From Ruegeria discodermiae (lineage in GTDB: Bacteria; Pseudomonadota; Alphaproteobacteria; Rhodobacterales; Rhodobacteraceae), in assembly GCF_030758345.1 (NCBI RefSeq), contig NZ_JAVAMO010000004.1:124001-188000 (forward strand): a stretch of DNA of 64,000 bases. The letters run 5' to 3'. Made by a program: the position numbers and the translations under genes. This document shows positions 10,329 to 24,301 of the stretch, one piece after another. Every line of letters starts with the position of its first letter. Positions within the stretch are counted from its first letter, which is position 1. Below the pieces are notes generated by a model, which saw nothing but the letters and a program-made list of their open reading frames with translations, did no database searches and had not been told where the DNA came from.

Positions 10329-11861
10329 CTAGAGCGGAATGTTGTCGTGTTTCTTCCATGGCTTCTGGCTTTTCTTGCCCCGCAACGAGGCAAAGGCGCG
10401 TGCCACCCGCTTGCGGGTCGACTGCGGCATGATCACCTCGTCGATGAAGCCGCGCTCCGATGCAACAAAGGGATTGGCAAAGCGTTCTTCATAATCGGCC
10501 GTGTGCTGGGCGATCTTTTCGGGATCTTTCAGATCGGCACGGTGGATAATTTCGGTCGCGCCCTTGGCGCCCATCACCGCCACCTCGGAGGATGGCCAGG
10601 CGTAGTTGAAATCGCCCCGCAGATGCTTGGAAGACATCACAACATAGGCCCCGCCATAGGCTTTGCGGGTGATCACCGTCACTTTCGGAACGGTCGCCTC
10701 GCCATAGGCAAAGAGCAGCTTCGCGCCGTGTTTGATCACGCCGCCATATTCCTGCGTCGTACCCGGCAGGAAGCCTGGCACGTCAACAAAGGTCAGGATC
10801 GGAATTTCAAAACAGTCACAGAACCGCACGAAACGCGCGGCCTTACGGGAGCTATCAATGTCCAGACATCCGGCCAGAACCATCGGCTGGTTGGCTACAA
10901 CACCCACGGTCTGCCCTTCTAGGCGGATAAAGCCGGTGATGATGTTCTTGGCGAAATCCCCTTGAAGCTCATAGAAATCGCCTTCGTCCGCGACCTTGGT
11001 GATGAGTTCCTTCATGTCGTAAGGCGTGTTTGGGTTTTCCGGCACCAACGTGTCCAGCGAGGTCTCGATCCGGCCCGGCTCATCAAAGAAGGGACGCACC
11101 GGGGGCTTCTCCCGATTGTTGAGTGGCAGGAAATCCACCAGACGGCGCACTTCGGCCAGGGCCTCGACATCGTTTTCGAACGCGGCATCCGCGACGGAGG
11201 ATTTCTTGGTATGGGTCGACGCCCCGCCCAATTCCTCGGCCGAGACCACCTCGTTGGTGACGGTCTTGACCACGTCGGGGCCGGTCACGAACATGTAAGA
11301 GCTGTCTTTGACCATGAAGATGAAGTCGGTCATGGCAGGGCTATAAACCGCGCCACCGGCGCAGGGGCCCATGATGACGCTGATCTGCGGCACCACGCCC
11401 GAGGCCTCGATATTGCGCTGGAACACCTCGCCATATCCGGCCAGCGAGTCGACGCCTTCCTGAATCCGCGCACCGCCAGAATCGTTGATCCCGATTACCG
11501 GCGCGCCATTGGCCACGGCCATATCCATGATCTTACAGATCTTCATCGCATGCGTGGCCGACACCGACCCGCCCAACACGGTGAAATCCTGGCTGAACAC
11601 ATAGACCTGACGGCCATTGATCGTGCCCCACCCGACCACAACGCCGTCCCCTGCGGGCTTTTGCTTTTCCATGCCGAAATCGGTGCAGCGGTGGCTGACG
11701 AACATGTCGAATTCTTCGAAACTGCCCTCGTCGAGCAGCAGGTCGATCCGCTCGCGTGCGGTCAGCTTGCCACGCCCGTGCTGGGCATCGATCCGTTTTT
11801 GCCCGCCGCCCAGACGCGCCGCGTCCCGGCGGTTTTCAAGCTCGGAGAGGATATCTTTCAT
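10329..11861 (-). CDS. pccB: Propionyl-CoA carboxylase beta (carboxyltransferase) subunit
   Basis: 510 residues from the ATG at 11861, preceded by AAAGGGA; the reading frame is open further upstream but this start gives the usual PccB N-terminus ([20 protein letters not shown]). It transfers CO2 from biotin on PccA to propionyl-CoA. Seen are the acyl-CoA carboxyltransferase crotonase-fold halves, including [30 protein letters not shown], the oxyanion [16 protein letters not shown] and the C-terminal [16 protein letters not shown]. The promoter region carries a TTTGCAAA box about 75 bases upstream of the start, the likely PccR target. The region is shared with the divergent MFS gene. Confidence 0.96.
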
Positions 11862-11933
11862 GGCCGGTGTCCCTTTCAAAATCGCGCGATACATATAAGG
11901 GATCGGCCTGCGGCCAAAGCGATTTTCAGCAAA

Positions 11934-11973
11934 TTTGCAAATCTTTTGAAGCACGCTGGATGCGAAATGCAAA
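11934..11973. promoter_or_regulatory. Putative PccR (ScfR) operator upstream of pccB
   Basis: A perfect TTTGCAAA palindrome lies at 11934-11941, and a related AATGCAAA (6 of 8 bases) at 11966-11973, 32 bases away centre to centre. PccR of Rhodobacter sphaeroides is known to use TTTGCAAA-type sites to activate pccB. The site is about 75 bases upstream of the pccB start codon and 100 bases upstream of the divergent MFS gene, so it might affect both. Confidence 0.7.
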
Positions 11974-12042
11974 TCTGTTAATTAACATCTTTATGAATCT
12001 TGGTTATGGACAGGCCACACCCCTGAGCATACATCCCACATA

Positions 12043-13257
12043 ATGACCCAGCTTCAGCATGAGACTTCGGCGCGCCGCAGCCCGCCCCGGATCGGCACAT
12101 TGGTTTTGCTGACTGGGTTGTCGGCGCTGGGTTTGAACCTCTATCTGCCCAGCCTGCCGAACATGACGCTGCATTTCGAGACCGAGTACCGGCTCATGCA
12201 GCTTTCAATCTCGCTATATCTGGCGGTCAACGCGATGATGCAGATCGTGATTGGCCCGATTGCCGACAAGGCCGGTCGGCGGCCGGTGATCCTGTGGGGG
12301 CTTGTACTGTTCCTGCTGGCGACGCTGGCTTGTATCTACGCGCCCAGCGCCGAGGCCTTTCTGGCCGCCCGCATGTGTCAGGCCGTGGTGGTGGTTGCCA
12401 TGGTACTGAGCCGGGCGGCGGTGCGAGACATGCATGATCAGGATCAGGCCGCCTCGATGCTCGGCTATGTCACCATGGGCATGGCCGTGGTGCCCATGAT
12501 CGGCCCAGCCATCGGCGGGATGCTTGACGAGAATTTTGGCTGGCACGCCAATTTCTGGATGCTCTTCATACTGGGCAGCTTCACCCTCTGGCTGACATAT
12601 GTGGATTTTGGTGAGACCGCGCTGAAAAGCGGCAAGACCCTGATCGAGCAGTTCCGCGAATATCCCGAGCTTCTGACCTCACCGCGTTTCTGGGGCTATT
12701 CGCTGGCCTCAGGGCTGAGTTCGGGTGCCTTCTTTGCCTATCTCGGCGGAGCGCCTTTTGTCGCGACCGAAATTTATGGCATGTCGTCTTCGGTCATGGG
12801 AGTCTATTTCGGGGCACCAGCGGCGGGCTATTTTCTGGGCAATTTCCTGTCGGGCCGCTATTCCGCGCGGTTCGGGGTCAATCGGATGGTGCTCTGGGGC
12901 TGTATACTGAACGCCGCAGGTGTTGGACTTTCTTTGCTGTTGACGCTTTCTGGGCTCGCCTCGGCCCTGACATTCTTCGGCTTCATGACCTTTGTGGGCC
13001 TCGGCAACGGCATGTCGATCCCCAATGCAACCGCAGGCGCCCTATCGGTGCGTCCACATCTGGCAGGCACTGCGTCGGGCCTGTCCGGCGCCATCATGCT
13101 GGGGGGCGGTGCTGCGCTCAGCGGTATGGCCGGCGCGTTGCTGGGCCCCGGCAGTTCTGAGGCACCGCTGCTGGGCCTGATGCTGGGCACCGCGGTGCTG
13201 GCGATCGGGTCAATTGCCGTGGTTATCTGGCGCGAGCGCCAACTGGCCCTGAGGTGA
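12043..13257 (+). CDS. Bcr/CflA-type multidrug efflux MFS transporter
   Basis: 404 residues, about 12 membrane helices, an inner-membrane proton-driven exporter of the DHA1/Bcr-CflA group. Family signatures seen are the first helix with GLNLYLPSLPNM (the LPALP-like motif), the loop motif GPIADKAGRRPVIL near residues 70-83, and the RAAVRDMHD segment. The family exports drugs such as bicyclomycin and chloramphenicol, or metabolites; the substrate here cannot be told. It lies between pccB and pccR, diverging from the first and running 60 bases ahead of the second. Confidence 0.88.
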   Translation: MTQLQHETSARRSPPRIGTLVLLTGLSALGLNLYLPSLPNMTLHFETEYRLMQLSISLYLAVNAMMQIVIGPIADKAGRRPVILWGLVLFLLATLACIYAPSAEAFLAARMCQAVVVVAMVLSRAAVRDMHDQDQAASMLGYVTMGMAVVPMIGPAIGGMLDENFGWHANFWMLFILGSFTLWLTYVDFGETALKSGKTLIEQFREYPELLTSPRFWGYSLASGLSSGAFFAYLGGAPFVATEIYGMSSSVMGVYFGAPAAGYFLGNFLSGRYSARFGVNRMVLWGCILNAAGVGLSLLLTLSGLASALTFFGFMTFVGLGNGMSIPNATAGALSVRPHLAGTASGLSGAIMLGGGAALSGMAGALLGPGSSEAPLLGLMLGTAVLAIGSIAVVIWRERQLALR

Positions 13258-13271
13258 CTTGCGCTGGCGGG

Positions 13272-13309
13272 TTTGCAAACCTAACCTGACGGGCAGGTAA
13301 ATCTGCAAA
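13272..13309. promoter_or_regulatory. Putative PccR operator upstream of its own gene
   Basis: Perfect TTTGCAAA at 13272-13279 and TCTGCAAA (7 of 8) at 13302-13309, 30 bases apart centre to centre. The second box ends 8 bases before the pccR start codon and overlaps the position of the ribosome site, so binding there would be expected to reduce expression. This suggests negative autoregulation, an inference from position. Confidence 0.6.
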
Positions 13310-13317
13310 GGCCACTC

Positions 13318-14718
13318 ATGCCTCCCCAAAAGCTCTATGCCGGTGCCAAGCTGCGCGAAATCCGCAACAGGCTGGCTTTGACCCAGAGAGAATTCGCAAC
13401 AAAACTGGGCATTTCGCTTCCCTATCTCAACCAGATGGAAAACAACAACCGCCCCGTTTCGACCACGGTGGTTCTGGCGCTGGCGCAGGAATTCGGACTG
13501 GATGTCACTGAACTCAGCAGCGGCGATAGTGAGCGGCTGGTCTCGGATATGCGCGAGGCGCTGGCCGATCCGCTTTTTGCCGAGATGATGCCGCCGCCCG
13601 CCGATCTGCGGTTGACCGCCTCAAACGCACCCGCGCTGGCCCGCGCCTTTATCGAGCTGCACCGCCACTACCGCCAAACACACGAGCGGCTGGCTTCGCT
13701 GGATGAGGCGCTGGGGCGTGAAGACGCCCGCCTGCAGGCCAGCCCCTGGGAAGAGGTGCGAGATTTCTTTCATTATTGCGACAATTATATCGACGCGGTC
13801 GACCGCAGCGCCGAACGCTTTGCCGATCTGGCCCGCCGCGAAAACGGCATAGGTTCCGCCGCCGAAGCGATGCTGGGCGCTCAGGGCATCACCGTCAGAA
13901 ATGTCGATACCGAAACCTTGCGCAGCTACGATGCCGAGGCGCGCCTTCTACGGTTATCCTCACGCGCCGCGCCCGAGACACGGATATTTCAATTGCTGCT
14001 GCAAGTGGCGCTGCTGACGCAGGACAAGCTGCTTGAGGCCACGCTCGACTTCGCGCGGTTCCAGACAGACGCCGCCCGCGCCATCGCCAAGATCGGGTTG
14101 GCCAATTACTTCGCCGGGGCCGCGCTGATGCCTTATGCCAGCTTTCTGGAGGCCGCGCGCGAAACGCGGCATGATCTGGAACTGCTGGGCCATCGCTTTG
14201 GCGCGTCGATCGAACAGGTTGCACACCGGCTGTCCACCCTGCAGCGGCCCGGCGCAAAGGGCATCCCGTTCTTTTTTGTGCGGGTCGATCAGGCGGGCAC
14301 CATCACCAAGCGCCATTCTGCCACACGGCTGCAATTTGCGCGGTTCGGCGGGGCCTGTCCGCTCTGGAACGTGCATCGTGCGTTCGAGACGCCCGGACAT
14401 TTCCTGCGCCAACTGGCCGAGACACCCGACGGGGTGCGCTATATCTCACTGGCCCGCGACGTGTCGAAACCGGGCGGGTCATTCGGCGCGCCCGTACGCC
14501 GTTACGCCATCGCGCTGGGGTGCGAGATACGTCACGCGGATGCGCTGGTCTATGCAGATAATCTCGATGTCAACAATGCCAGCGCTTTCGAGCCCATCGG
14601 CATTTCCTGCCGCATCTGCGAACGCGCCACCTGCCACCAGCGGTCGGTTCCGCCGCTGGAACGCAGGCTGACCATCGACCCCGACACGCGCGGCACCCTG
14701 CCTTACCTCGTCGACTGA
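13318..14718 (+). CDS. pccR: Short-chain fatty acyl-CoA regulator PccR (ScfR family)
   Basis: 466 residues. An N-terminal XRE helix-turn-helix (about 10-65, LALTQREFATKLGISLPYLN) is followed by a long IrrE/DUF955-like and DUF2083 region, ending in a cysteine cluster CRICERATC near residue 436. This is the ScfR family, in which PccR activates propionyl-CoA assimilation and relatives RamB and MccR control other short acyl-CoA routes. Orientation and distance to pccB, the two TTTGCAAA-bearing promoters and the nearby pccA and scpA genes support PccR specifically. The effector is presumably an acyl-CoA of the pathway. Confidence 0.92.
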   Translation: MPPQKLYAGAKLREIRNRLALTQREFATKLGISLPYLNQMENNNRPVSTTVVLALAQEFGLDVTELSSGDSERLVSDMREALADPLFAEMMPPPADLRLTASNAPALARAFIELHRHYRQTHERLASLDEALGREDARLQASPWEEVRDFFHYCDNYIDAVDRSAERFADLARRENGIGSAAEAMLGAQGITVRNVDTETLRSYDAEARLLRLSSRAAPETRIFQLLLQVALLTQDKLLEATLDFARFQTDAARAIAKIGLANYFAGAALMPYASFLEAARETRHDLELLGHRFGASIEQVAHRLSTLQRPGAKGIPFFFVRVDQAGTITKRHSATRLQFARFGGACPLWNVHRAFETPGHFLRQLAETPDGVRYISLARDVSKPGGSFGAPVRRYAIALGCEIRHADALVYADNLDVNNASAFEPIGISCRICERATCHQRSVPPLERRLTIDPDTRGTLPYLVD

Positions 14719-18356: not shown

Positions 18357-19865
18357 TCATTCGCCGCGCGGAAAGCGCTGGCTTTCCTCGACGGTGTTCA
18401 GATCCATGTGGTTGCGCATGTAGCGTTCCGAGGCGCGTTGCAGCGGCTGGTAGTCCCAGGGATAGTAGCCACCCTGCCGAAGTGCTTCATAGACCACCCA
18501 GCGGCGGGCCTGGCTGGCCCGCACATCAGCGTCATAGGCGTCCAGATCCCAGCGCGCCTCGGATTTGGCGCGCAGCGACTGCAAGGTGCCCTGATGCGCC
18601 GGGCTGTCGGCCAGGTTGGTCAACTCATGCGGATCTGCCTCTAGGTCAAACAGCTGATTGGGGTCCAGCGCGCAGCGGTTATACTTCCACTTGCCATAGC
18701 GCAGGGAAACCAGCGGCGCATGCGAGGCCTCCGCGGCGTATTCCATCGCCACCGGCGCGCTCCGCTCGACGCCATTTGCCAGCGGCACAAGGTCTTCGCC
18801 GTCAGTCCAGGGCGCGATTTCAGCCATATCCACGCCTGCAAGAGCGCCCAGCGTCGGTGTCACGTCGATAGTGGAAACCGGAGTGTCGATCCGCCCGACA
18901 GGCATGTCAGGCGCCGAGATCATCAGAGGCACCCGCGCCGAGCCCTCGTAGAAGCACATCTTGAACCAGAGGCCCCGCTCACCCAGCATGTCGCCGTGAT
19001 CCGACACAAAGAGGATGATCGCCTCTTGCCGTGTGCTCTCCAGCACATGCAGGATTTCACCGATCTTGTCGTCCAGATAGGAGATATTGGCAAAATAGGC
19101 CCGGCGGGATTTGCGGATATCTTCTTCGGTGATGTCGAAACTGCGCCAGTCATTGGCATCAAAGATACGCTGCGAATGCGGGTCCTGATTGTCATAGCCG
19201 AGGTCGGAAACCTGCGGCAGCAGATGTTCGCAATCCTCGTAGAGGTCCCAGTATTTCCGCCGCGCGACGTAAGGGTCATGCGGATGGGTAAAGCTGACGG
19301 TCAGGCACCAAGGGCGCTCGTCCCTGCCACGCGCAAGATCATAGAGCTTGGCGGTGGCGTGATAGGCAACCTCGTCATCATATTCCATCTGGTTCGAGAT
19401 TTCGGCAACGCCCGCGCCAGTGACCGAGCCCATATTGTGATACCACCAGTCGATGCGTTCGCCGGGCTTGCGGTAATCCGGCGTCCAACCGAAATCGGCG
19501 GGATAGATATCGGTGGTCAGACGGTCCTCGAACCCGTGCATCTGATCAGGACCGACGAAATGCATCTTGCCGCTGAGACAGGTGTAGTACCCCGCCCGGC
19601 GCAGATGATGCGCATAGGTCGGAATATCGCTGCGGAACTCGGCTGCATTGTCATAGACCCCGGTGCGCGATGGCAATTGCCCGGACATGAATCCCGCCCG
19701 CCCCGGCGCACAAAGCGGCGAGGCGGTGTAGGTGTTTGCAAACCGGGTCGAGCGCGCGGCAAGGCGCTTGAGGTTGGGCGCATGCAACCAGTCGGCGGGA
19801 CCATCGGGAAATAGAGTTCCGTTAAGCTGATCCACCATCAGGATCAGAATGTTGGGTTGAGTCAT
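18357..19865 (-). CDS. betC: Choline sulfatase
   Basis: 502 residues. It hydrolyses choline-O-sulfate to choline and sulfate, feeding BetA and BetB. The type I sulfatase signature LCAPGR is at about residues 51-56; the Cys at 52 should become the catalytic formylglycine. Metal-ligand motifs include MVDQLNG at the N-terminus and [17 protein letters not shown] in the middle. The C-terminal extension from about residue 400 is typical of choline sulfatases. Its start overlaps the betI stop by 4 bases, indicating coupled translation. Confidence 0.95.
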
Positions 19866-23998: not shown

Positions 23999-24301
23999 AT
24001 GACAACCTTTATCATTCTGTTTGAGGACAACCCGGATGCCGACCTCGACATCCGCAAAAAGCATATGAGTGCACATCTGGCCTTTCTGGAAGCGCATGCA
24101 GACGCCATTAGTGCTGCGGGTCCGCTTTCCAGCCCCACGGGCGCAGGTCAGGGAGGATTGTGGATCGTCGCTGCCGAGACAGAAGACAAGGTCGAGCAAC
24201 TGGTGCATCGCGATCCGTTCTGGGACACCGGGTTGCGCCAAAGCTATCGCATTCTGCGATGGCGGCAGGTCTTTGCAAACGGCATCCGGCAGATCACCTA
24301 G
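23999..24301 (+). CDS. YciI family protein
   Basis: 100 residues from an ATG with GGAG about 7 bases upstream. It shows the YciI fold markers: an opening strand MTTFIILFEDNPDADLDIRK, the HMSAHLAFLE helix with a conserved His, and the late EQLVHRDPFWDTGL containing the conserved Asp. YciI proteins are small dimeric ferredoxin-like proteins, some with dehydrochlorinase-like activity, most uncharacterised. It is divergent from the LysR gene 87 bases away, and may be its target. Confidence 0.85.
   Translation: MTTFIILFEDNPDADLDIRKKHMSAHLAFLEAHADAISAAGPLSSPTGAGQGGLWIVAAETEDKVEQLVHRDPFWDTGLRQSYRILRWRQVFANGIRQIT

Follow-up and report, generated by a model that had tools for sequence, protein, structure and literature searches.

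The window, that is the whole 64-kb stretch of Ruegeria discodermiae DNA that was analysed, contains the gene for a propionyl-CoA carboxylase subunit (pccB) and that for its presumed regulator (pccR), separated by a transporter gene. Behind pccB, on the same strand and with small genes in between, lie pccA and methylmalonyl-CoA mutase genes. The features of the locus are listed here, with offsets at pccB counted from the core box d and offsets at pccR from box 1:

10329..11861, minus strand: pccB, propionyl-CoA carboxylase carboxyltransferase subunit (Carboxyl_trans domain)
11890..11895, minus strand: putative pccB -10 element, TATGTA (columns +46, +47 and +51; pairwise identity 0.49, moderate)
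11914..11919, minus strand: putative pccB -35 element, CTTTGG (columns +22 to +25 conserved)
11929..11933, minus strand: pccB half-box e (offset +8), TTTGC, adjoining box d (columns conserved)
11934..11941, minus strand: pccB core box d (offset 0), TTTGCAAA, exact; anchor of the comparison, present in 107/110 pccB promoters
11961..11966, minus strand: pccB box c (offset -25), TTCGCA, one mismatch; has one base in common with box b as drawn
11966..11973, minus strand: pccB distal box b (offset -32), TTTGCATT, given as AATGCAAA in the preliminary description; exact in 63/107
11976..11981, minus strand: pccB box a (offset -40), TTAACA, degenerate with two mismatches, so that the window falls outside the rule of at most one mismatch
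12043..13257, plus strand: MFS transporter of the Bcr/CflA family, between pccB and pccR (MFS_1; TIGR00710 above cut-off)
13259..13264, plus strand: putative pccR -35 element, TTGCGC (CTTGC columns -14 to -10 before box 1 in the +30 class, n=42)
13272..13279, plus strand: pccR box 1, TTTGCAAA, exact, within the putative -35/-10 spacer
13282..13287, plus strand: putative pccR -10 element, TAACCT, 17 bp from the putative -35 (columns T +10, A +11, T +15)
13297..13301, plus strand: degenerate pccR half-site at the +22 position, GTAAA for GCAAA (GCAAA at +22 in 29/106 relatives)
13302..13309, plus strand: pccR box 2 (+30), TCTGCAAA, overlapping the likely ribosome site
13318..14718, plus strand: pccR, ScfR-family regulator (HTH_3, Peptidase_M78 and ScfRs in Pfam)

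A TTG at 11972, taken as the pccB start in a mechanical list of open reading frames, was rejected, since the relatives start at the equivalent of the ATG at 11861. A strict scan for the sigma-70 consensus over 11860-13330 found no promoter, and the placements of the -35 and -10 elements thus rest on conservation.

The window protein has the HTH, M78-like and C-terminal ScfR domains that characterise the PccR group and, as in that group, its gene lies near those of propionyl-CoA carboxylase. It aligns with PrpR of Mycobacterium tuberculosis at E 3.7e-86; its C-X2-C-X4-C motif and the GAF-domain cysteine align with 6cyy at all four Fe-S cysteine positions, and PccR hence keeps the cysteines of a predicted 4Fe-4S site. 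Against the NCBIfam RamB equivalog NF038139 it scored 424 bits, below the curated cut-off of 700.

An exact search of the window located TTTGCAAA upstream of pccB and of pccR, at 11934-11941 and 13272-13279, with the second boxes, AATGCAAA at 11966-11973 and TCTGCAAA at 13302-13309, beginning 32 and 30 bp away, respectively. The four boxes are therefore where the preliminary description had put them. Two further exact copies lie at 19735-19742, by eye within a sulfatase-like open reading frame (18357-19865), and at 24272-24279. Exact TTTGCAAA occurs four times in the 64 kb against 0.81 expected, a count reached in 2 of 100 shuffles, and with up to one mismatch it was seen 21 times against 19.3 expected. 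This chance-like count means that the imperfect second boxes cannot be established from the window alone, and it would favour the view that promoter DNA, being AT-rich, contains such boxes by chance, a view rendered almost untenable by the conservation in relatives described below, where the counts are far above those in shuffled sequences. In the organism's own 5.8-Mb genome, pccB is the only place that matches the pattern TTTGCA-N26-TTTGCAAAT perfectly, and the best of the other places listed have two mismatches; with up to three mismatches the pattern was met at 118 places, against 29 when reversed, and there may be further targets.

For the comparison, PccR was sought in 199 Rhodobacteraceae genomes, one per genus label, 186 of which, the window included, gave a match at E 0.001; both genomes of the window's genus have one. 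We fetched 120 regions, from 119 of the 186 matching genomes and from one more of the window's genus, the former being mostly the best ranked, so that distant relatives are under-sampled. The regions were oriented by tblastn and the window was added to give 121 rows, in which the start of pccB could be located in 110 and that of pccR in all 121. The order pccB, MFS, pccR seen in the window is the commonest among the relatives. Extra DNA, probably of at least one gene, stands between pccB and the MFS gene or between the latter and pccR in L036, L037, L044, L045, L047 and others, and the MFS gene is absent from L139, L153, L154 and also L141. The pccB promoters were anchored on the core TTTGCAAAT; three of the 110 remained unanchored and were counted as misses, the core being beyond the position limit in L080, ending differently in L112 and degenerate in L138. 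Control sequences were mononucleotide shuffles that keep base composition only, 300 of them at pccB.

Among the 107 anchored pccB promoters, TTTGCA with at most one mismatch was found exactly 32 bp upstream of the core in 99 and at -31 or -33 in none. The same hexamer stands at -40 in 81 promoters and at -25 in 54, while the other offsets gave a mean of 1.1 and a largest count of 10, and the shuffled controls never exceeded 5 at any offset. Every promoter (107/107) has at least one of these distal boxes; the -32 and -40 boxes occur together in 74, and all three in 32. Half-box e is documented by exact TTTGCAAATTTGC in 69/110 pccB upstream regions. Pairwise identity is 0.77, 0.84, 0.58, 0.98 and 0.83 for boxes a, b, c, d and e, respectively, and 0.27-0.33 for the spacer from -20 to 0, where the column profile is blank from about -20 to -10. 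On the 3' side of the array, promoter-like columns appear at +22 to +25 and at +46 to +51. The distance from core to ATG varies from 68 to 113 bp among the relatives, so that a constant promoter length does not account for the fixed 32 bp.

The pccR promoters present a different picture, in that their spacing varies. Exact TTTGCAAA (box 1) lies within the last 75 bp before pccR in 106 of the 121 rows, and 15 lack it. In the 106, TGCAAA with at most one mismatch follows box 1 at +30 in 44 and at +29 in 14, and also at +22 in 34, at +21 in 18 and at +20 in 13, with a maximum of 4 at any offset in the shuffled control. Under a stricter rule applied to all 121 rows, spacings of 22 with 30 were assigned to 24, 30 alone to 18, 20 alone to 13, 21 with 29 to 9, 22 alone to 8, 21 alone to 8 and 29 alone to 5; 7 had other arrangements, 14 had box 1 but no second box and 15 had no box 1. 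The spacings thus fall into classes near 20-22 and 29-32. In the +30 class (n=42), CTTGC precedes box 1 and T-A...T follows it, which places box 1 inside a putative promoter spacer.

The second box at pccR overlaps, in the window, the AAAGG just 5' of the ATG, the likely ribosome site, as had been remarked before. This overlap, together with a G after the second box in 29/42 of the +30 class, could indicate a mere by-product of the ribosome site and not an operator; we hold this to be improbable, because the TGC before the AAA is also conserved (T in 35, G in 42 and C in 42 of 42), a second GCAAA stands 8 bp earlier and, in the class with spacings of 28-32 (n=62, a range chosen by the analyst), the second box keeps its distance to box 1 (sd 0.75) far more closely than its distance to the ATG (sd 6.4). 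Conservation of the second box and its spacing, on which the preliminary description had made its case depend, was thus found at pccB (-32 in 99/107) and at pccR (+30 in 44/106). Its picture of two boxes per promoter as a simple pair has to be replaced, however: judged from these alignments, the boxes of pccB and pccR belong to arrays stepped by 7 to 8 bp (-40, -32, -25, 0 and +8 at pccB, often 0, +22 and +30 at pccR), and the operator is real, sharply defined, rigidly spaced and common to about 100 genera.

The array goes with the regulator, as the assignment of the boxes to PccR implied. A core with a distal box was found in 107/110 pccB promoters from genomes with PccR and in 1/32 from genomes without a clear PccR. 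The latter comprise 28 Rhodobacteraceae genomes in which PccR found nothing or, at best, a match with E above 1e-50, of which 25 had pccB and 24 a readable upstream region, with states set by hand, and 8 more genomes with an intermediate ScfR match (E between 1e-68 and 1e-107). In the 24 upstream regions there was no core in 22, a lone core in L237 and the whole array in L247. The L237 genome gave no ScfR-domain match; the L247 genome gave one, partial, above the cut-off and on another contig, and a gap in the assembly could hide its pccR, since only 612 bp of contig precede pccB. All 8 genomes with an intermediate match have pccB and none has the core (0/8), which suggests that a more distant ScfR relative is not enough to keep the array in place and strengthens the link of the array to PccR. 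Of 11 further PccR-bearing loci, some of them named and all considered separately, 9 have the core and the -32 box; the two exceptions under the core rule are L213 and L214. In at least 30 genera pccB is retained without a core box or a clear PccR, and these would regulate this gene otherwise or not at all.

Fisher's test for array against PccR gave p 2e-21, a value that ignores kinship. On a tree of 132 rows, built before the last 8 genomes were added, from which 2 of the 110 had been dropped for short pccB coverage (leaving 105/108) and 1 of the 25 PccR-less genomes for having no upstream DNA, at least 16 changes of PccR and at least 18 of the array are needed; a strict independent-pairs test, underpowered with only 5 pairs, gave about 4 concordant and 0 discordant pairs (median p 0.125).

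The order-wide search for PccR gave matches in Rhodobacteraceae genomes only, 117/121 of them at E <=1e-80. When the array pattern was sought across the class with one mismatch allowed, 7 of 385 genomes had it, namely the 5 from Rhodobacteraceae and 2 others; in the latter two loci (L175 and L181) no pccB was seen within their 3 kb. In this strict one-mismatch search of 385 genomes, the array at pccB was not found outside Rhodobacteraceae.

In the window, the MFS gene starts 62-76 bp downstream of the distal boxes and, according to the accessible part of the literature, similar TTTGCAAA boxes can be recognised by each ScfR protein; the PccR operator could thus consist of the core box (0/+8) alone, with the distal boxes serving another factor, for instance at the divergent MFS promoter. 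We regard this as unlikely. At least one distal box is kept in 23/23 arrays where pccB is more than 500 bp from the MFS gene and in 4/4 where the latter is absent, which indicates that the array goes with pccB; moreover, the spacing of the distal boxes to the core is exact, and they vanish along with the core where PccR is absent, including 8/8 genomes with a distant ScfR relative.

In Rhodobacter (Cereibacter) sphaeroides an orthologous regulator acts on the same target gene, with TTTGCAAA boxes upstream of pccB, and the PccR motif there reportedly consists, after work by Carter and Alber in 2015, of two TTTGCAAA boxes 4 bp apart. The arrangement TTTGCAAA-X4-TTTGCAAA was found exactly in 1/107 pccB promoters (L148) and with at most one mismatch in 4/107; the pccB promoter of the window has the -32 box and does not contain this arrangement even with one mismatch. 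The L148 genome appears to be that of C. sphaeroides, Cereibacter johrii being 93% identical, and the motif is exact in Cereibacter johrii (L202) and broken in Luteovulum azotoformans (L216). All three of these Cereibacter-type loci keep the -32 and -25 boxes, so that the R. sphaeroides motif appears to have been added locally to a more widespread array. The suggestion that the 32-bp spacing is the variant form is accordingly reversed, as this spacing is nearly invariant in the family.

Taken together, both pairs of boxes are best read as parts of PccR operators, with PccR most likely activating pccB and blocking pccR, and we give this reading a probability of about 0.78. PccR would sense short-chain acyl-CoA. 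At pccB about 9 bp separate the end of the array from the -35-like element downstream, and PccR bound to the array would activate pccB and, if they are read together with it, pccA and the mutase genes behind it. At pccR, box 1 lies between the -35-like and -10-like elements, and close to where the start and the ribosome site are expected there is a second box or two boxes in tandem with an 8-bp step (commonly +22/+30); by covering the spacer and the start of its own promoter, PccR would shut down its own transcription. The end of the array just upstream of -35-like columns fits activation of pccB, and boxes within promoter-like columns and near the start fit autorepression of pccR. The roles proposed earlier, activation of pccB and repression of pccR, thus agree with where the boxes lie, the sign of each being what we infer from position, and the looped or cooperative arrangement suggested with them may apply.

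One PccR tetramer might bridge the distal and proximal clusters, which we consider somewhat less than an even chance. More tentative still is the broader proposal that the operator is a rigid two-cluster array, occupied by one D2 tetramer in a small fixed loop or wrap that would activate pccB, that the pccR operator is its rearranged counterpart, arisen when the MFS gene came between the two genes, and that the R. sphaeroides motif is a lineage-specific addition. Boxes b and d would then lie 32 bp, or about three turns, apart and the two pairs 40 bp apart. In L139, L153 and L154, pccB and pccR diverge with 142-174 bp and no gene between them, and a single array faces both, a hint that the two operators may have had a common origin.

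A motif derived from a single species would give way to an operator present in about 100 genera, and the sharp pattern of the latter would help to recognise where PccR controls propionyl-CoA carboxylation. The exact positions of its boxes make it possible to ask how an acyl-CoA sensor working as a tetramer could switch one promoter on and another off, and genomes without a clear PccR, in which the array is almost always missing, constitute a natural experiment.

The comparison with known systems drew on the accessible parts of PMC10370305, PMC12632250, PMC6765138 and PMC3420887, and no title or abstract opening in the literature searched names a 32-bp PccR array. In Paracoccus denitrificans, RamB needs both of its boxes, 18 bp apart, and a dual role as activator and repressor has been proposed for it (PMC10370305). 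Class 2 RamB resembles the PccR system as an ScfR activator with two nearly identical boxes; it differs in having two boxes with an 18-bp spacer at a glyoxylate operon, and the accessible text describes no five-box array (PMC10370305). PrpR of M. tuberculosis assembles as a D2 tetramer, has CoA or acyl-CoA as its ligand and targets a pair of 8-bp palindromes with 1 bp between them (PMC3420887, PMC6765138). It differs from the PccR system in its single two-palindrome site with a 9-bp step and a 25-bp footprint, for which these sources, as far as accessible, describe no second cluster about 32 bp away; as an ScfR relative with tandem 8-bp palindromes, a tetrameric state, acyl-CoA binding and an Fe-S site, it is like the PccR system (PMC3420887, PMC6765138).
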